34,462 nucleotides of DNA, taken from assembly GCA_947592005.1 (NCBI GenBank), contig CANQDJ010000011.1, positions 1 to 34,462 on the forward strand. The letters run 5' to 3'. The notes under the pieces were generated by a model. That model did not search any database, had not been told where the DNA came from, and was given only the letters and a program-made list of their open reading frames with translations. Shown here piece by piece: positions 2,582 to 25,358 of this stretch. This stretch comes from an uncultured Anaeroplasma sp. GTDB lineage: Bacteria > Bacillota_I > Bacilli_A > Acholeplasmatales > Anaeroplasmataceae. A program made the translations under genes and the position numbers. Position 1 is the first letter of the stretch. Every line of letters begins with the position of its first letter.

Positions 2582-4802
2582 GCGGTTAGAACAAATTTAC
2601 AAAACATATATAACAAAAAAAGGACAACATTTTCCGGCATTACATTCCGTTTCTCTAAAAATAGAAAACAAAGGCTTTATCTTACTTACCGGTAAATCCG
2701 GCAGTGGTAAATCCACTTTAATCAATATAATATCCGGATTAGATACCGACTATCAAGGAAATGTGTTCTATAAAGATGTCAACTTAAAAGACTTATCTCG
2801 GAAAGAACTAACCGCTTATCGAAACACCGAAATCGGTTTTGTCTTTCAAGATTATTGTTTGATTGAAAATAAAACCGTCTTAGAAAACCTTTCTCTTCCT
2901 TTGAATATGCAAAATATCGACCAACAAGATCGTATTGATTCTATTCTTCAACAATTTGGATTGTCTGAACATAAACATAAATATCCCAACGAATTATCCG
3001 GTGGAGAACAACAAAGAGTCAGTATCGCCAGAGCGTTACTAAAAAATCCGAATATTGTCATTGCCGATGAACCAACAAGTTCTTTAGATAACACAAACGC
3101 TACAATGATTTTAGAATTATTAAAAGAAATTTCTAAAACCAAATTGGTTATTGTCGTTTCTCATGATACCACATTGGTAGGATTGTTTGCCGATCGAGTT
3201 ATCACATTAAATGAAGGTTCTGTCTTATCGGATTCTAATCCTATAGATACTATACAAGAAACAGAAAAATTAAATATAAAAAAATATGCGATTTCGTTTA
3301 AATTTTTATTGACCGATGTTTTCCATAATTTAAGTCAAAACATCAAATTTTATATATTCCTTTTATTCGCTACTATATTTTCTCTTTCTTTGGTAGGAAG
3401 CACCATCACAATGAATCAATTCAATGAAGATCATATCTTATACAATTCCGTTAAAAACTTTGATGAACAATTTATAACATTTTCTTCTCCTGATTCTACC
3501 ATTACCGACACAGACTACAAACCCACACTTCAAAAACAAATCATTCCAATCGAAACCTGTAAAGCATTGGAAAACTCATTATATACCGAATTTGATTCTC
3601 TGTTTTCTATCGATACTTCCTATTTGGCCGATGGCTGGTTTTCCGGAATCATTGTTTTAAATCAAAAAAACTTAAATACCCTACCTTATACCTTATCGGA
3701 AGGACGATTTCCAAATAAAGAAAATGAAATTGTTTTAACGGATTATATATTTCAAACCTATAAAACTTTGGGATATTCAATAGAAGATACTTCTTATTCC
3801 ATTCAAACTTTTTCCGATTTGGAATCTGTTCCTTTTTATATAAACCAAAAACAATATAAAATTGTAGGAATCATAGATACAAAATTCAATTATTCCTATT
3901 ATAAAAACCAAATCAAACAAGAAGTTTCCAAGCATTTATTCGATGAAATTGACGCTTTAAATCAGGGAATACATACCGCTGTTTTCGTTAATGAAACATT
4001 TTTTGATTCTATACCTGTCATAATGGATTTGGAAATAAAACAAAACGATAAAACACTTTATTTTACCGACTCAATCCAAATAAACAAAAATCTAAACGAT
4101 TACGAAATCCAATGTTCTCTCGATACAGGAGAAGGCTTGTTGGAATTTTCAAACATAACTATTCCAATCCATATTACTTCCAATGAAGAAGATATATTAT
4201 ATGTATCGGAAAAACTATATTCCGAAATCTTAGAACAATATACCGCAAGACAAACCAATCATATTCTTTTAAAACTATCTAATAAAACTTCCACTGATTT
4301 AAAAAATATACAGTTTTTGAAAACAAAAAATCTACAAATAGAAAGTCCGCATAAAGTAATGATAAATTATATAAAAGAAAACTACAACTTATTAAAAACC
4401 ATTATTTTATGCCTAAGTGTCTTTCTATTATTACTCGGCTTACTTTTAGGTTTTAAATTTTCTTCAGAATCCATTAGTTCGAATAAAAAACAAATTGCCA
4501 TTTATAAAGCATTGGGAATGACACAAACAGATATATCTAAAATATATATTCTTCAATCTATCATTTCCGCTTGTTTTACCTTTATCCCTTCTACCCTTCT
4601 TTCCTTTTTATCTAATTGGATAATAAACGGAATAATCAATAAAACAATGACTACCTCTCTTGCCCTTCCAAGTTTTTCTATTTTCACTTTCTTATTCTTA
4701 TTCTTCGTTCCTATATTTTTATTTACTGTTTCTATAATCTATCCACTCTATAAATACAATAAAAAATTAAATCCATTCCAACTACTTCATTCTGTGGAAT
4801 AG
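2580..4802 (+). CDS. ABC transporter, N-terminal ATPase fused to C-terminal FtsX-like permease (paralog of preceding gene)
   Basis: Nearly identical ATPase region to 83..2554; different permease region with TM segments; RBS GAAGAGG upstream of ATG. Confidence 0.9.
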   Translation: MRLEQIYKTYITKKGQHFPALHSVSLKIENKGFILLTGKSGSGKSTLINIISGLDTDYQGNVFYKDVNLKDLSRKELTAYRNTEIGFVFQDYCLIENKTVLENLSLPLNMQNIDQQDRIDSILQQFGLSEHKHKYPNELSGGEQQRVSIARALLKNPNIVIADEPTSSLDNTNATMILELLKEISKTKLVIVVSHDTTLVGLFADRVITLNEGSVLSDSNPIDTIQETEKLNIKKYAISFKFLLTDVFHNLSQNIKFYIFLLFATIFSLSLVGSTITMNQFNEDHILYNSVKNFDEQFITFSSPDSTITDTDYKPTLQKQIIPIETCKALENSLYTEFDSLFSIDTSYLADGWFSGIIVLNQKNLNTLPYTLSEGRFPNKENEIVLTDYIFQTYKTLGYSIEDTSYSIQTFSDLESVPFYINQKQYKIVGIIDTKFNYSYYKNQIKQEVSKHLFDEIDALNQGIHTAVFVNETFFDSIPVIMDLEIKQNDKTLYFTDSIQINKNLNDYEIQCSLDTGEGLLEFSNITIPIHITSNEEDILYVSEKLYSEILEQYTARQTNHILLKLSNKTSTDLKNIQFLKTKNLQIESPHKVMINYIKENYNLLKTIILCLSVFLLLLGLLLGFKFSSESISSNKKQIAIYKALGMTQTDISKIYILQSIISACFTFIPSTLLSFLSNWIINGIINKTMTTSLALPSFSIFTFLFLFFVPIFLFTVSIIYPLYKYNKKLNPFQLLHSVE
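2644..3253 (+). repeat. ATPase-module duplicate, copy 2
   Basis: Constant offset of 2506 bp from copy 1 across 610 bp. Confidence 0.95.
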
Positions 4803-14016: not shown

Positions 14017-14586
14017 ATGATGCCCTATTATGATTTAGAATACCACAAACAAAATAACCGAAGCCATATCTTACCGAACATTTTAAACGGAGCCAAACAA
14101 GGCGTATTAAGCCAATTTATAGCGGATATCGTTTTATCGATTCTTCTCTATAACGAAACCATCGTCATTGAAGATATCGAAATCAGCGAAATTCCTGCCT
14201 ATTATGCCGCCGTAATCAGCGGAATGACCGTAGCGTTTTTAATGATCTATATGGATTCATTCGCCGTAGCCTTATTTTCCACATTAACTTACGCCTTTAT
14301 TTTCGAACTATTGGATTCCCAAATCCATCAAACAGAATTCTACCTTCGTCCTGCCGAAATTATATTTGATACCGGTGTTTCCCTTATTTTAATCTATTGT
14401 TTCGATCCGGTTGCCCATAATCAATATCAAAGATATCGAGAAAAAAGACACTTCATCGAACCAATCCATCAAAGAATGGATCGAAATATGGCTCAAAATA
14501 TCTTTATTATCGTATTAGTCAATACCTATGGTTTCTTAAAACTTCAAGAAGAAAAACAAAAAGGGGAAACTTCCCCTACAACTTAA
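14017..14586 (+). CDS. Predicted membrane protein of unknown function
   Basis: 189 aa with several TM segments, GAAAGGAATACT RBS region upstream; 3' end overlaps convergent prfA by 11 nt. Confidence 0.75.
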   Translation: MMPYYDLEYHKQNNRSHILPNILNGAKQGVLSQFIADIVLSILLYNETIVIEDIEISEIPAYYAAVISGMTVAFLMIYMDSFAVALFSTLTYAFIFELLDSQIHQTEFYLRPAEIIFDTGVSLILIYCFDPVAHNQYQRYREKRHFIEPIHQRMDRNMAQNIFIIVLVNTYGFLKLQEEKQKGETSPTT

Positions 14587-15652
14587 CGGCTTCCTGAGCG
14601 GAAAGTTTTCTTTTTTGATCTTCCGCTATCAATTCCTGAATAACCAAATCCAACTTACCCTCAATTACAGCATCTAACCGATTAATTGTAAATCCGATTC
14701 GATGATCCGTTACTCTATTTTGCGGATAATTATACGTCCTTATTTTCTCACTTCTATCGCCCTTTCCAATCAAAGACTGCCGAGTAGCCCCTTCCGCTTC
14801 TTCTTTTTCCCGAACCAACTGATCATATAATCTTGTCGTCAAAAGTTGTAAAGCTGCAGCCTTATTTTCATGTTGAGAACGATTGGTTTGACACGCTACC
14901 GATAACCCTGTCGGAATATGGGTAACCCGAACGGCAGAATACGTCGTATTAACTCCTTGTCCGCCCGGACCGGAAGAACAAAACGTATCGACACGAATAT
15001 CATTCATATCTAATTGAAAATCAATTTCACTTGCCTCCGGCATTACCAAAACCGTCGCTACAGACGTATGAATTCGTCCCTGAGATTCCGTTGCGGGAAC
15101 CCGTTGAACCCGATGAGCACCGGATTCATATTTTAAAAACGAATAAACCATATCTCCACTAACCATAAACTGAATTTGAGAATAACCTCCCATTTCAGAT
15201 GGCATAGCATCTACCACTTGAATTTTCCAACCTTTTGTTTCGGCATATTTAGAATACATTCTAAACAAATCTCCCGCAAAAATATTCGCTTCATCTCCGC
15301 CGACCGCACCACGAATCTCCACAACAACATTCTTTTCATCATTGGGATCTTTCGGCAACAACAAAACCTTGATTTCTTCGGTAATCTCACTCAATCTCGC
15401 TTCGGTTTCTTCCAACTCCGCTTGTGCCATTTCTGCCATTTCCAAATCATTGGACTTCTTCATTTCTTTTAAATCCGGAATAGCGGATTCCAACTTCTTT
15501 TGTTCCCGATATAAAACAACCACTTTTTCCAAAGAACGTTGTTCCTTCGAAAGTTCCGTCAACTTCTTTACATCACTGACAATCTCCGGTTGCATCAACA
15601 AAGAATTAATCTCTTCATACCGCTCTTCCATAATTTTTAAACGATCTGTCAT
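14576..15652 (-). CDS. prfA: Peptide chain release factor 1
   Basis: GGQ motif (SSGPGGQGVNTTYSAVRVTHIPTG), PAT tripeptide (RVPATESQGRIHTS). Confidence 0.95.
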   Translation of the reverse strand: MTDRLKIMEERYEEINSLLMQPEIVSDVKKLTELSKEQRSLEKVVVLYREQKKLESAIPDLKEMKKSNDLEMAEMAQAELEETEARLSEITEEIKVLLLPKDPNDEKNVVVEIRGAVGGDEANIFAGDLFRMYSKYAETKGWKIQVVDAMPSEMGGYSQIQFMVSGDMVYSFLKYESGAHRVQRVPATESQGRIHTSVATVLVMPEASEIDFQLDMNDIRVDTFCSSGPGGQGVNTTYSAVRVTHIPTGLSVACQTNRSQHENKAAALQLLTTRLYDQLVREKEEAEGATRQSLIGKGDRSEKIRTYNYPQNRVTDHRIGFTINRLDAVIEGKLDLVIQELIAEDQKRKLSAQEAVKL

Positions 15653-17004
15653 ACTGTTCCCTCACCATTATATTCCATGAATTTTTGAAGTGCACCGGTG
15701 AAAGAAAACTTTAATCCTTCTTCCGTAGAAGTTGAACCCGAACGATTCTTCGCAATAATCACATTCACCAATCCCTTTATAGCCGTAGGATCATTATAAT
15801 ATTCTCCACGATACAAAAATAAAATAATATCCGCATCTTGTTCAATAGAACCTGACTCTCTCAAATCCGACATAATCGGTCTTTTATTCTCTCTTTTATC
15901 TACTTCACGAGATAACTGTGATAATGCCAAAACCGGCACTTCCAATTCTCTTGCCATCAATTTTAAATTTCTCGAAATCCTAGAAATCTTCTCTTGTTGA
16001 GAAGCCTTTTGACTACTTAAATCACTTTCAATCAACTGAAGATAATCTACCACAACAAAATCCAATCCGCTATCCGCTTTCAATTTTCGGCACTTTGCCC
16101 GTATGGAAGCAATCGAAGAATCGGAAGAATCATCAAAAAACAAATTTAATTCCCCCAACTTCGAACAACTTGTCGTAAACCTTACCCATGCAGATTGATC
16201 CATCTTTCCTGTTTTGATTTTTCCCAGTTCGACAGATCCGTCTGCCGCAATCAATCGCTCGGCCAGTTGTTCCGCCGACATTTCCAAAGAAAATATAGCC
16301 ACAGAAGCCTTTCCACCCTTATTCTTTTCAGCGATATTCAATGCCAAATTCAACGCCATTGCCGATTTACCGACACTGGTTCTTGCGGCAAGAATAATAA
16401 GTTGACCACTTTGAAAACCTTGTGTATATCGATTCAAAGAAGGAAATCCCGTATCCAAACCGATAATTTCGCTTTTCATTGTAGCGTTCTTTTCCGTATT
16501 TTTTAAAACCTCTTTGGAAACCTGTTTAATCGTACGGAAAGAATCCACTCTTCTTCTACTAGAAAGTTCGAAAATGCTCTTTTCCACATTTTCCAAATAA
16601 TCAAAAACCCCCGTTTTATTATCATAACCCTTTTGAGCCAAATTATTTAACGTATAAATCGTATTTCTTCTCAACGAAGCATTCTGAATCAAATCAATAT
16701 ATGTATCTACATTGGCAGTAGAATAACTGAAATCGGCAATCTTGGAAATATAATCCGTTCCTCCGCATTGTTCCAAAATATGAGCGGAAGAAAGAGAAGT
16801 CAAAACCGTTGCCGGATCAATATGTTTCCCTTCCTTATATAACGATACCATCGTCTTATATATTAACCGATTCTTCACATCATAAAAATCATCAGGCACC
16901 AAAATATCCGCCGATTGAATGATGACACTTTCATCTAAAAAAATACTTCCAATTAACGCAATCTCGGCTTCCATTTCATATGGAATCGTAGGAGCATTCA
17001 TCAT
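15649..17004 (-). CDS. dnaB: Replicative DNA helicase
   Basis: EAEIALIGSIFLDE N-terminus; Walker A ARTSVGKSA; VVVDYLQLI; SDLRESGSIEQDADIILFLYR. Confidence 0.96.
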   Translation of the reverse strand: MMNAPTIPYEMEAEIALIGSIFLDESVIIQSADILVPDDFYDVKNRLIYKTMVSLYKEGKHIDPATVLTSLSSAHILEQCGGTDYISKIADFSYSTANVDTYIDLIQNASLRRNTIYTLNNLAQKGYDNKTGVFDYLENVEKSIFELSSRRRVDSFRTIKQVSKEVLKNTEKNATMKSEIIGLDTGFPSLNRYTQGFQSGQLIILAARTSVGKSAMALNLALNIAEKNKGGKASVAIFSLEMSAEQLAERLIAADGSVELGKIKTGKMDQSAWVRFTTSCSKLGELNLFFDDSSDSSIASIRAKCRKLKADSGLDFVVVDYLQLIESDLSSQKASQQEKISRISRNLKLMARELEVPVLALSQLSREVDKRENKRPIMSDLRESGSIEQDADIILFLYRGEYYNDPTAIKGLVNVIIAKNRSGSTSTEEGLKFSFTGALQKFMEYNGEGTV

Positions 17005-17013
17005 ATCCCTCCA

Positions 17014-17457
17014 TTACTTTTCAATAACATTAATTTCAAACGTAGCGACAATATCCTTATCCAATCGAACACTTGCGGTAAAAATACCAACAGAATTAAT
17101 TTCGGCAGGAAGTTCTACCTTCCTCTTATCCAAATGAATTCCCGTTTGAGCCTCAAATTCATCACAAACCAATTTCGTGGTAATATGTCCGAAATTCTTT
17201 CCGTCCGCACCTACTTTAATATAAATAGAGATAAATTTACCTTGAATCTCACTCTTTAATTTATTCAAAACATCTCTCTTATGCTCTTCCGCAATCCGTT
17301 CTTCTTCTTTCTGTTTTTCCAATTCCTGTAAATTCTCCATCGTCGCCATAACCGCTAATTTATTGGTAATCAAATAATTCCCATACCCGTTGGCAACATC
17401 AATAATTTCGTCCTTTTTCCCTTTTCCTTTTACATCACTCAACAAAATTACTTTCAT
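17014..17457 (-). CDS. rplI: Ribosomal protein bL9, possibly also translated independently from an internal start
   Basis: ATG at 17457 preceded on the minus strand by GAAGGAGAGGAAAAA (strong SD); 147-aa L9-length product ending at the shared stop. Confidence 0.75.
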
Positions 17458-19461
17458 TTTTTCCTCTCCTTCGTCCATATAATCTCTCTTGATAATATCC
17501 AAAATCATTTCACGAACTTCGGAAATCGTCGTATTGGCTATTTGCGTAGCAGCACTATTATAATGTCCGCCTCCACCTAACTCTTCCATAATGATTTGAA
17601 CATTGACATTATCCAAACTTCTCGCCGATACTCCGACACTTCCATTAGATAAAATACCTATCGTAAAAGACGTATCTACTCCATCTATACCCAATAACTT
17701 ATCACTGATTTTCGCCAAAGTCGTCCGATCTTCCACTACCGTAGTATCTTCCAAACATACAATGGCAAAATGACGATCAAAGATTTCGGCACGCATAAGA
17801 GCACTCGCCAATTTTTGTTCGACAGACATCGGTTCCCGCAATAACTTACGAACATATACCATATCCGCACCCATAGATTTCAATGTAGAAGCCGCTTCAA
17901 ACGTTCTCGTTCCGGAACGGAAAGTAAAGTTATTCGTATCAACAATAATACCAGCCAACATCACAGACGCTTCCAACGGCGGTATTTCAATATTATCATT
18001 ATAGAACATAAACATCTCACTAACCAATTCCACACTGGAAGAGGCAGATGATTCTACATAATAGGACAACAAATCCTTATATCCGTCATCTCCCGCTCTA
18101 TGATGATCAATAACCGATACTCTTTGAATTTTTTGAATCAAATTCGGAAACATCGCCAACTTCGGAGATTGTGTATCCGTAATAATCAATAACGTAGTCG
18201 GTTTAATCAATTCCAACGCCTCATTATAACTAATAAAATAATTACTCAACGAAGTTTGAATCAATTCATCAAAAATCTTTTTAACCGTCAAATCCGCATA
18301 TTTGGCTTCAAACACCATTTTGGCATCTACATTGGAACTTAACACCAAATGTAACACTCCCAACATAGATCCAATGGCATCGCAATCCGCCAAATTATGG
18401 CACATAATCAAAACATTGCTACTGCCTTCCACCGCTTCTTTAATAGCCATAGTTTGCATACGGGCTTCCACAAGCGTATTCTTTTCCAACGTATTGGTAT
18501 TCCCACCGAAATATTGAATCTTTTCTCCCTGAATATTTACAACGACTTGGTCGCCACCTCTTTTTTCCGCCAACTCTATCGCATTTTGAGCCAAAGAACC
18601 CAATTCATCGGAATCCACATCATAACAAGCAATACCCATTGAAATACTGGCCTTTAATCGATTCTTCGAAGAAATTTCTCTAACTTTCGATAAAATCGAA
18701 AACTTATCTTCTACCATTTTCCCCAAAGACTCTCGATCCATAATCATAAACATTCTATCATTCGATAACGTTTGTAAATAACAATTATAACTTCCAACCC
18801 AATCGGAAATCTCACCAAGAATTTGACCTCTCAAATTCGCTTTTTCCTGCATATCGAATCTCTTTAAAGACTCTTCCAAATTATCCAATCCAATGATACC
18901 TATACCTGCGATTCTCGCATTATATCGACGAATCGTTTCTTCCCGTTTCGTTACATCGAAAAAATATAAAATATCATTTTGAGAATTATGTATAACGTCA
19001 TAAGAAGACGCATTAAAACTTAAAATCATTGTATTTTTATTTGCGATAACATCATTCACCAATTCTTTGGAAATAACATCTAAAGGAGAATCCACCAAAG
19101 AATGATTAAAAATCTTTTTTACATAATCATTTGCCCACTTCACTTCATAAGAATCATCATAAACCAAAATACCTACAGGCAAATTATTAAAAACTTCATC
19201 ACCGGCTTGATTGACATGATAAGATATATTCGTCCATAATTTTAATCTCGTTCGCATTGCGTCCATTTTTTCTTCCGTATTTCTATTAAAAAATAGAAAC
19301 AAAAATATCATAGCGATAATAATAGAAAGAATAGAAGAAACCAAAAATAATATAGTAAAAACATATTGTTTTTGATCCAAATAAAAATATGTTAAATATC
19401 CAAAACCCGCAAAACATACCCAAAAAAATATACTAAATAAAATTTTACGCACAAGGATCAC
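17014..19461 (-). CDS. gdpP: GdpP-type cyclic-di-AMP phosphodiesterase fused in frame to ribosomal protein bL9
   Basis: 2 TM + degenerate PAS/GGDEF + DHH/DHHA1 ([36 protein letters not shown]), then continuous L9 sequence [36 protein letters not shown] with no intervening stop. Confidence 0.9.
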
Positions 19462-21099: not shown

Positions 21100-23142
21100 C
21101 TAACTTTCACAATTCTTATTTCTTGCCTCACCACTAGCACCACTACCACTTGGAGTTAAAGTAATAGTCGTGCTGGAAGAATCAACAAAATATAAAACAC
21201 CATCAGTTGCATTTCTACGGAAATATAAGATAACCGGTGACCCTGTTTCTCCACTTACTACAAATATCACATCACTCTTATCCGTAAAATCTGAATATCC
21301 ACTACCTGTTCGATAAACAAAATCTACACCTTCTATTTGTCCTGTATATTCAGGAGTCGGACCAACACCTTCTTGATTTCCATTGATACCGATATCCATA
21401 TACAAGAAATATGCTCCTTTTTTATCACCTTTATATAAACAAAATTCCGCATTATTTTCAAGATCTTCTTCCGTTACCTCATATTCAAAATACATTAATA
21501 GATATTCGGGAAGATTATTAGAATAATTATTAATTTCGCTTATTTCTTCTGCGGATAAGTCCTGCCCGGCAAAAGGATTTTCTTTCGTTCCGCTATTGCG
21601 ATAAATTTTAATCAACTTAAAACTTTCACCATCTGAACCGGAATACATTACAAAACGAAGTTTTCCTTTATTTTTCGGTTTAAACCAAATGGCGTTATTT
21701 GGCAAACAAATTCCTCTAGTGTCGTATAAAGGAACATCTTCTCCATACAATTCACCAAAATAATTGATTTGTCCTTGATAAGACCAAGCGTCATTTTGAT
21801 CACTTGATGTTACATTTGTTCCAGCATACCTTTGACTTAACCGAATGGTAAAATAATCAACTTTTATATTACTATCGGGAATCAATTCTTTAATATTTTG
21901 TGGTAAACTTTCAAAAGTTTCCGAATCCATAGCGGTAATATTTGTTTTGGCATAATCTCCATTCCCACCATGAACTATAAAAAATTGGCGTGGCGTCTCC
22001 TTCGCTTCGGATGGCGTTTTACCCTCCACATTTACATAAGGGGCATTCATATCCGATGGTTCAATCAGCGGATCACTAAATATAATATCACTTTTGTTAA
22101 TCTTATTTTGATTTCCTATATAATATCCGATATTTTGGGAAGATACAACTTCCTTAGCCGTCGGACCAGTGTAATTTTCTTCGGTAATTGTCGAAGGAAC
22201 GACGGTAAGAGGCATTTTATTTTGTGTATCTAGTGCCGGATAAGTATTATTTGTAGTAATAGTCGGTAAATAAGGAGATTCTCCCTTATTCGCCAATATC
22301 AAATTTAACCGATCCAATAATAAATCAACATCAAAGTTACCACCATAGGCCAAATCCTGTCCCGGTCCTCCGGATCCCGGTTTATCCGCCCATTCAATAC
22401 TATTTCCATCATAATCTCCTACCAATGCATAATTACTTATATTATCAAAGGCACTTAATTTAGAAATAGATGTTGTTGGATTCATATTAAACCAAGAATA
22501 ATGAATACCTATATTCCTTATCGTTCCATTACTAGCGATATATCCGGCTGCCATTCCTATCAATGTATTTTCGGTTATAGTTTCCACTTCGAAATTATCC
22601 AAATAGAAATTACTTGCTGACATTACAGTAGAACTTGCTATACCGCTAAACGCTTCATTGTAATTCCCTATTATTCCGAAAAATCCAATAATAGAGGCAT
22701 TCTCTATCTGTGTGATTCCGGAAGGGTGGGCTTTTAAATTCGTCATATTATTGGTGGTTACCAAATTGGTTATCGTTTTGGAATTTCCGTCTAATGTTCC
22801 TACAAACGGATTTTCTTCCGTCCCTATTGGTGGAAGGGCCAATCCGTCCATATCAATATCTTGAACAATTTCAAAATGATATTGTTTTTCTAATTCTCCG
22901 TCTACCTTTTTATTAAATTGCCCCAAATACTGTAACCAAGCCAAATTATATAAATGTCTTGGAGTAGCAATTTGATAAGGATCTTCTTCCGATCCATCAC
23001 CGGCAGCAAAATAAGCGGCGGCAGAATACCCAGAAACCGTCGGTCTGTTAAATTCCGTATTGACAAACCAAGCATAAGATACAACAATGACCGTGCTTAA
23101 AACAAAGAAAACACTGACAAATAAAAATATCAATCGTTTCAT
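21100..23142 (-). CDS. Large secreted/surface protein with N-terminal hydrophobic segment and YAWFVNTE motif
   Basis: MKRLIFLFVSVFFVLSTVIVVSYAWFVN signal/anchor; 680 aa; GTLDGNSKTITNLV GLUG-like region. Confidence 0.75.
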   Translation of the reverse strand: MKRLIFLFVSVFFVLSTVIVVSYAWFVNTEFNRPTVSGYSAAAYFAAGDGSEEDPYQIATPRHLYNLAWLQYLGQFNKKVDGELEKQYHFEIVQDIDMDGLALPPIGTEENPFVGTLDGNSKTITNLVTTNNMTNLKAHPSGITQIENASIIGFFGIIGNYNEAFSGIASSTVMSASNFYLDNFEVETITENTLIGMAAGYIASNGTIRNIGIHYSWFNMNPTTSISKLSAFDNISNYALVGDYDGNSIEWADKPGSGGPGQDLAYGGNFDVDLLLDRLNLILANKGESPYLPTITTNNTYPALDTQNKMPLTVVPSTITEENYTGPTAKEVVSSQNIGYYIGNQNKINKSDIIFSDPLIEPSDMNAPYVNVEGKTPSEAKETPRQFFIVHGGNGDYAKTNITAMDSETFESLPQNIKELIPDSNIKVDYFTIRLSQRYAGTNVTSSDQNDAWSYQGQINYFGELYGEDVPLYDTRGICLPNNAIWFKPKNKGKLRFVMYSGSDGESFKLIKIYRNSGTKENPFAGQDLSAEEISEINNYSNNLPEYLLMYFEYEVTEEDLENNAEFCLYKGDKKGAYFLYMDIGINGNQEGVGPTPEYTGQIEGVDFVYRTGSGYSDFTDKSDVIFVVSGETGSPVILYFRRNATDGVLYFVDSSSTTITLTPSGSGASGEARNKNCES

Positions 23143-23897
23143 TATGCACTTGCCCCCTTAATAGAAAAATAGAAATCGCAAACATCATAACTAACGTCTT
23201 CTGCATGCGGATTCGTCGGATCCGTATCCGGATTTAAAGCCGCATCATTACCCAAGTTAATAGAATAAATATACTCAATAGATTCCGGAAAATAATCCAT
23301 TACTATATAAACCGTATCTACCATAGTAGCCTCAGATAACGTTATATTTTTTTGCAATTCTCTCGTATCTAAATCAACAAAAGACTTTCTGTCTTCTTCT
23401 GAAAAAGTCGTAGTAATAGTATCTCCATCTACAGAAACGCTCGGAATATAAAAACTAATGACACTACTTAAAGAATTCCCTTCTTTTTTTAAAATCCATT
23501 CGTCGCCATCTTTCGCTTCCGCACCCAAATATCTTGTGGCAGATGTCGTCGCCTCAACCTTTACTCTCGCTTCTTTCTTCAAATGAATTGCGATTAACCG
23601 TTGCGGATAAAATCCTTCACTGTCCAATTCATTGACTATATTATAAGAACCCATCTCTATTTCAGAAGTAATCTTTGTATTAAAAACCAAATTCCCACTT
23701 TCATCTTTTTGATTGGATTTAAAATACTCCACTGAATCAATCAATTCCTCGTTTTTTACAATATGCCCAACTATTCCGTTCGCTTCGGCTTCTTTATTCG
23801 TAACATACCAAGCAAGGCATACAAAAACCAACAAAACCGCTGTCAGCATCATAGAAAGGATAGAAGAATAAAAATAATACTTTTGCTTCATAAACAC
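23142..23897 (-). CDS. Secreted/surface protein with LAWYVTNKE motif (TasA/SipW-substrate-like N-terminus)
   Basis: N-terminal hydrophobic segment SSILSMMLTAVLLVFVCLAWYVTNKEAEANG; start of next gene overlaps its stop (TAATG). Confidence 0.7.
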   Translation of the reverse strand: MFMKQKYYFYSSILSMMLTAVLLVFVCLAWYVTNKEAEANGIVGHIVKNEELIDSVEYFKSNQKDESGNLVFNTKITSEIEMGSYNIVNELDSEGFYPQRLIAIHLKKEARVKVEATTSATRYLGAEAKDGDEWILKKEGNSLSSVISFYIPSVSVDGDTITTTFSEEDRKSFVDLDTRELQKNITLSEATMVDTVYIVMDYFPESIEYIYSINLGNDAALNPDTDPTNPHAEDVSYDVCDFYFSIKGASA

Positions 23898-23949: not shown

Positions 23950-24030
23950 TTCAGCAACTGGCTATCCAAGTAGGACCCTATAGTTTTGCGTCACTAGATT
24001 ACTCTAGTTTTGCCTTTGTAATCGCTTTTT
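23950..24030 (-). ncRNA. Cyclic-di-GMP-I (GEMM-I) riboswitch aptamer
   Basis: Minus strand AGCGATTACAAAGGCAAAACTAGAGTAATCTAGTGACGCAAAACTATAGGGTCCTACTTGGATAGCCAGTTGCT: conserved GGCAAA, GNRA-capped P2 (ACTAGA-GTAA-TCTAGT), GACGCAAA, CCTA and TAGCC blocks; 5'/3' P1 pairing AGCGATT/AGTTGCT. Confidence 0.85.
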
Positions 24031-24098: not shown

Positions 24099-25358
24099 TC
24101 AAATAAAAAACTGTTTTAACTGTTCAGATTCACAAAGTGTTTCATATTCTTCCTTCATTTGTTGATAACTTTGTAATACCATTCTTTCCTTTTCTTTGGC
24201 TAAAGCCATAATCTCTTCAATATGATCCACAAAATGATTTACAATTCTTGAATCCAATTTATTATCTCTGGCATCTTTACATAAAATATCGATAATCTGA
24301 TCTTCCGAAAACGAATCCTTATAACTTCTCTTACAATACAACGCACTTGCCACATCTGCTACAGCGATAATCTTATCTCCGATAGAAAGATCGATCGCTT
24401 TCAATCCTCTCGGATATCCGCTTCCGTCCAATCTCTCATGATGATTTGACGCAATATCGACAATCTTATAAGAAAAACTACCTTCCAATATCTCTTTGGT
24501 ATATACCACATGATTCTTCATTTCTTTTAAATCCGCTCCCTCTAATTTTCCCGGATAACATAAAATAGAAACAGGAACTCGAATCTTTCCTATATCATGA
24601 ACCAAAGCCGCCAAATAAATACATTGAATTTGACTCTCACTCAACCGAGAAAGTTTCGCCAATTCTTTGGCAATAACCGCCGTAGTTATCGTATGAGCCA
24701 ACGTTTCATGATTATGAAATTCAAAAGCGAAATTGGTCATATCGATATAACTCAATAACTCTTCATCACTATATTCTCCGCTTTGTACAAACGCACTCGT
24801 TTCATGAACAAATAAAGAATTCTTCTGATTTAACTTCTCTATAATATCTTCTTCATCTTTCAACAACCGTATCACTTTTTTAATTTGATCCGGGTGAAAT
24901 CTTCCCGAATTATCGTTTTTTAATAATTCTTCTATCTCTTCTAAAGTATATTCCTGATAAATATATAATACCACCTGATTAATCAAAGTAATCAACAATC
25001 CGCAATAATATTCTTCATTTTCAATATCCGGCATATATTTCGCATTATAAAACAATAACGGCTTTGCCGAATCTTTCAATGGTGAACAATATTTTAAAAA
25101 AGTATATCCCGAAGCGGCAACGGAAGCATAATCATCTTTAGCGATAATCCCATCTTGATAAAAACACCCAATATCTTTTAAAACACACAACAAAACCAAT
25201 TTAACCGCTACTTGTTGATTCAAATTATACTTTTGGGCAAATCGTTTCATAATAAACCCTGCCCGTAATCCATTATCTATATATTCTCTATTGATTTCAT
25301 TCAATACTTTTCTCAAATATTTTAAAATCGTACTTCCGTTATAATAATATGATTCCAT
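24099..25358 (-). CDS. HD-GYP domain phosphodiesterase-like protein
   Basis: HETLAHTITTAVIAKELAKLS, AALVHDIGKIRVP, SNHHERLDGSGYPRGL, KIIAVADVASAL. Confidence 0.93.
   Translation of the reverse strand: MESYYYNGSTILKYLRKVLNEINREYIDNGLRAGFIMKRFAQKYNLNQQVAVKLVLLCVLKDIGCFYQDGIIAKDDYASVAASGYTFLKYCSPLKDSAKPLLFYNAKYMPDIENEEYYCGLLITLINQVVLYIYQEYTLEEIEELLKNDNSGRFHPDQIKKVIRLLKDEEDIIEKLNQKNSLFVHETSAFVQSGEYSDEELLSYIDMTNFAFEFHNHETLAHTITTAVIAKELAKLSRLSESQIQCIYLAALVHDIGKIRVPVSILCYPGKLEGADLKEMKNHVVYTKEILEGSFSYKIVDIASNHHERLDGSGYPRGLKAIDLSIGDKIIAVADVASALYCKRSYKDSFSEDQIIDILCKDARDNKLDSRIVNHFVDHIEEIMALAKEKERMVLQSYQQMKEEYETLCESEQLKQFFI

Follow-up and report, generated by a model that had tools for sequence, protein, structure and literature searches.

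The window analysed here, a stretch of 34,462 nucleotides from an uncultured Anaeroplasma sp., contains a ribosomal protein gene in frame inside the gene of a signalling enzyme, an arrangement that recurs across a whole order and beyond, and it raises the question of how such a locus supplies the ribosome with protein bL9. The answer that we favour, and consider very probable, is that an ancient clade-wide gdpP-rplI fusion works as a nested gene, which yields free L9 by internal initiation alongside full-length GdpP-L9.

The fused reading frame and its surroundings

Positions 17014-19461 of the minus strand form a single open frame of 815 codons, counted from the first GTG. The original prediction described a continuous GdpP-L9 frame here, which is confirmed in that no stop codon interrupts it, and its reading of the domains, as the transmembrane, PAS, GGDEF and DHH/DHHA1 regions of GdpP followed by a complete bL9, is also correct. 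The GTG at 19452 is the likelier start of GdpP, since the pairing of the upstream GGGGTGAT with the anti-Shine-Dalgarno (anti-SD) sequence reaches -6.0 kcal/mol, whereas the GTG at 19461, from which the ORF list counts 815 aa, has -2.8; the fused coding sequence would then occupy 17014-19452 (812 aa). A sigma-70-like promoter match (TTGATT-17-TATAAT, with TG before the second hexamer) lies upstream on the same strand at 19502-19474 and is only suggestive, such matches occurring at chance number in this region.

The GdpP part (17458-19452, minus strand) comprises two N-terminal hydrophobic stretches, PAS, degenerate GGDEF, DHH and DHHA1 domains, and a GGGGH motif, whilst the nested in-frame rplI (17014-17457, minus strand) begins with the ATG at 17457-17455 and encodes a bL9 of 147 aa. 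The Pfam models PAS_GdpP, GGDEF_GdpP, DHH, DHHA1, Ribosomal_L9_N and Ribosomal_L9_C all score over cut-off, and the L9 equivalog TIGR00158 is matched with 106.9 bits against 58.6. Residues 90-663 align with a solved GdpP phosphodiesterase (PDB 9n0l, E 1.2e-77) over the PAS, degenerate GGDEF and DHH/DHHA1 regions, and the DHH motifs are present (H352, D356, D358, D426, D449-H450-H451 and D505 in the 812-aa numbering, together with GGGGH). Neither these motif residues nor GGGGH vary between the window protein and the two named relatives closest to it, from Candidatus Avacholeplasma faecigallinarum (77% identity) and an Acholeplasmatales bacterium (69%). Residues 669-814 align with positions 1-147 of solved bL9 (PDB 1div, 7qgu), the N and C domains being complete, and the sequence GYGNYL corresponds to the conserved GYxNxL segment of the N domain. 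The window genome encodes a diadenylate cyclase (PF02457), so c-di-AMP is a plausible substrate of the enzyme. No second rplI or L9 was found elsewhere in this genome, and the fused copy is its only L9.

The neighbours that run in the same direction are putative genes for S6 and S18 (recognised by sequence), ssb and the gene of the replicative helicase, dnaB (15649-17004, minus strand; NCBIfam DnaB), which follows the fused gene after 9 nt. A 189-aa membrane-like ORF (14017-14586, plus strand), which is read against the direction of the prfA-dnaB run, has no Pfam or NCBIfam match. Elsewhere in the window, a c-di-GMP-I riboswitch (Rfam RF01051, 60.8 bits; 23950-24024, minus strand) is located just 5' of a two-gene unit (23142-23897 and 21100-23142) without a Pfam match, whose 680-aa product gives the impression of a SipW/TasA-type surface protein at its N-terminus. 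This unit is adjoined by an HD-domain protein (HD_5, 24099-25358) that is possibly a cyclic-dinucleotide phosphodiesterase.

The probable internal start of rplI

Directly 5' of the L9 start, within the GdpP coding sequence, lies the Shine-Dalgarno (SD) site AAGGAGAGG (17463-17471, minus strand), which forms an anti-SD duplex of -9.3 kcal/mol. The junction was aligned in 119 genomes with a single fused copy, representing 10 families, the genomes within a family not being independent. A start codon occupies L9 residue 1 in every one of them (ATG in 109, GTG in 9 and TTG in 1). Valine at this residue is written GTG in all nine cases, whereas GTG accounts for 12% of the valine codons in these ORFs (P 4e-9 unadjusted, or about 2e-4 if there were only four independent changes). 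An SD-like hexamer is found 4-13 nt 5' of the start codon. Mean anti-SD duplex energy at the L9 start is -9.3 kcal/mol, compared with -1.4 at 3715 other in-frame ATG, GTG or TTG codons of the same genes, and an energy of -7 or below is reached by 84% of L9 starts against 1.3% of the other codons.

This SD occurs in two codon phases (69 and 49 genomes) and is encoded by residues that differ among families (QEEKP, YGGD, EGG and KEE), and it is therefore not the by-product of one conserved peptide. When the seven upstream codons were recoded synonymously with the protein held fixed, the mean was -6.2 against the observed -9.3; 87% of genomes have an observed SD that exceeds the recoded mean in strength, with P<=0.05 in only 24% individually. 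Recoding leaves part of the SD, and hence part of the signal lies in the choice of residues. Structure in the mRNA is weak near the internal start (-3.1 versus -5.8 elsewhere), the low region being broad and base composition uncontrolled, and it is given no weight here.

We suggest that ribosomes starting at the upstream GTG would make a c-di-AMP phosphodiesterase of the membrane that carries an L9-derived tail and is presumably active as an enzyme, and that those starting at the internal AAGGAG...ATG (17471-17455) would make an ordinary free bL9 of 147 aa, which would be incorporated into ribosomes and so supply them. Judged by site strength only, GdpP-L9 would be a low-copy product of the GTG start and free L9 an abundant product of the stronger internal SD and ATG.

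Genomes with a second, free rplI

In five genomes a free rplI follows the fused gene at a distance of 15-70 nt. Two of them (G002 and G093) belong to the window's own genus and three (G398, G404 and G410) to family f9, groups that are widely separated on the tree; these lineages with a second rplI provide a clean evolutionary test that separates signals kept for L9 from signals kept for the enzyme. The free copies have an ATG and an SD in all five cases, with SD energies of -5.7 to -10.3. The fused copies beside them have lost the SD in all five (+1.0 to -2.4), and the start codon in three, all from f9 (ACT, AAG and AAG); G002 and G093 retain the internal ATG despite loss of the SD. All five tandem fused copies have lost Gly24 of L9, which does not vary in the 119 single fused, 52 unfused and five tandem free copies, and with it the neighbouring aromatic or His residue (position 25). 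The internal start and these L9 residues thus decay once another gene supplies L9. Release of free L9 by a second start is thus strongly supported by comparison of the sequences. Among the functional options offered by the original prediction, the second start gains from the conserved start codon and SD, whereas tethering of L9 or of ribosomes at the membrane found no positive evidence; nor is a membrane tether needed to supply L9.

The tails of the tandem fused copies are nevertheless open at full length and under purifying selection. In G002 and G093 the dN/dS of the tail is 0.12 (Fisher P 2e-16), with nonsynonymous change like that of the rest of GdpP; in G404 and G410 it is 0.32 (Fisher P 4e-6) and the tail is relaxed against GdpP. 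Three fused tails released from the L9 role (L095, L096 and L097) are without the glycine and aromatic residue at L9 positions 24-25 and keep the rest of the domain. Retention of the tail is independent of Gly24 and residue 25, because both are lost in the tandem lineages while the tail stays under selection, and the L9-like tail seems to be retained for a role within GdpP that does not need those L9 residues. Why GdpP keeps an L9-shaped tail is a question posed by these data, and the tandem fused tails are a test case for the repurposing of a ribosomal domain.

One reading of the tail, which would be an addition to internal initiation and not an alternative to it, is that full-length L9 docks GdpP on ribosomes or rRNA in the single-copy lineages. 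The tail is kept everywhere, and a regained stop was seen in none of the single-copy fused genomes sampled in the order; against this, the tandem tails lose Gly24 and residue 25 yet remain under selection. We consider it doubtful that docking takes place, and it is similarly doubtful that the tail would be a docking module through which the membrane phosphodiesterase senses or tethers ribosomes, and which has become a dedicated GdpP domain in the tandem lineages.

Two further readings dispense with the internal start. If only the full-length fusion were made, ribosomes would carry L9 bound to the membrane phosphodiesterase and c-di-AMP turnover would be coupled to them, as the open frame and the L9 domain, complete in all single-copy cases, would allow. 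This leaves unexplained the conserved start codon (GTG and TTG included), the SD kept in varying codon phases and the loss of start codon and SD beside a free rplI, and it implies one membrane enzyme per ribosome, a stoichiometry that we count against it; such an arrangement is highly improbable. Alternatively, the fusion might be translated and a protease near the junction might then cut L9 free, which would also yield free L9 and would suit a linker that is short and variable. No conserved cleavage peptide is seen, however, the residues preceding L9 varying by family while the SD is kept, and a protease has no need of a start codon (ATG, GTG or TTG) at residue 1, so that we give this route very little credence. 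A nested gene with its own internal start remains the preferred explanation.

Distribution, origin and relation to known systems

The order was sampled with 150 genomes, 145 of which contain an L9 match, and all 145 possess a copy in the fused frame. The frame is at least 758 aa long in 141 of these, and three of the remaining four are cut by contig ends; in G148 it is open over 511 aa and has its stop about 100 nt from the contig start. The fusion is also present in five further families of the class (f9, f16, f19, f23 and f24). Separate L9 is encoded in f7, f8, f10-f15, f17, f18, f20-f22 and f25-f27, among members whose frames were listed. Relatives with two ORFs and an intact stop, to which the original prediction had looked for its refutation, occur only outside the fused group, for example in f7, f12, f17 and f22, where the two genes are either directly adjacent or overlapping (overlapping in f12). 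The window comes from a draft genome of 76 contigs, yet the probability that the fusion reflects misassembly, or a stop codon lost recently in one lineage, is negligible, because an open junction is shared by all the relatives sampled from the order and by the five further families, complete single-contig genomes among them; since no relative examined interrupts the junction, a frameshift at 17440-17490 can for practical purposes be dismissed.

In the unfused genomes G151, G443 and G612, gdpP and rplI share a frame and are separated by one TAA, and loss of a single stop codon would be enough to create the fusion. In a GdpP tree with 77 rows, every fused family falls in one supported group (99/93), which also contains the unfused f7 on a weak branch. 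Two state changes are required on this tree, yet the AU test does not reject a single origin (p 0.39), and several independent fusions are not called for. The position of f7 could equally reflect one reversal or a misplaced branch. Family f23 was first suspected of an independent fusion because of its low model scores; it groups with f16 and f24 (99/99), and this candidate was rejected. The GdpP-L9 fusion appears to be ancient and clade-wide, and it suggests that a lineage can stably tolerate losing a single stop codon provided that internal initiation preserves the second product.

Some genomes depart from the usual gene complement. G209 (f23, 97% complete) has the fused GdpP-L9, and the diadenylate cyclase domain (PF02457) was not found in it. 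Neither L9_N nor L9_C was found in G228 (f9, genus g89; 97% complete) or G434 (65% complete), both of which have a diadenylate cyclase, and the GdpP-L9 match in G228 is only weak (E 8.8e-7). Within the genus with duplicated rplI, some species may have lost both gdpP and rplI.

The guess in the original prediction that such fusions may already exist in databases was right. The architecture is catalogued and is ordinary in the order: the window protein shares it in full with the NCBIfam equivalog NF011110/PRK14538 (PRK14538.1, putative bifunctional signaling protein/50S ribosomal protein L9), matching positions 52-835 of the 838 in the model with 777.4 bits against a cut-off of 707. This cut-off is not reached by the tandem copy of G002, nor by fused members of f9, f16, f19, f23 and f24. 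The family name describes a bifunctional protein and does not include the nested start; a single bifunctional annotation can conceal a distinct core gene, with the risk that free rplI is mistakenly counted as absent. A literature search found no description of the mechanism of the GdpP-L9 fusion, and as far as we could find the nested start and the tandem-copy test are undescribed in the searchable literature, outside which lie most subscription papers.

Comparison with the individual components shows where the locus differs. The alignment with GdpP (YybT), as solved in PDB 9n0l, stops after DHHA1, whereas the window frame runs on into L9; and the L9 coding sequence, which corresponds to the bL9 of PDB 1div and 7qgu, lies inside the gdpP frame with no stop between. 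Bacillus has both genes in one operon, but there they are separate, with a stop codon between them (PMC4568413). In the available portion of a phytoplasma genome paper, rplI adjoins dnaB and a fusion is not mentioned (PMC3750655). The closest parallels to the proposed free L9 are archaeal Cas11b (PMC11899642) and Salmonella SpaO-short (PMC13059759), which, according to the accessible parts of these reports, are likewise shorter C-terminal proteins made from inside the frame of a longer one. In contrast to both, as far as those parts describe them, the short product here would be a ribosomal protein, and the layout would have arisen from an ancient loss of the stop codon between two genes of an operon.
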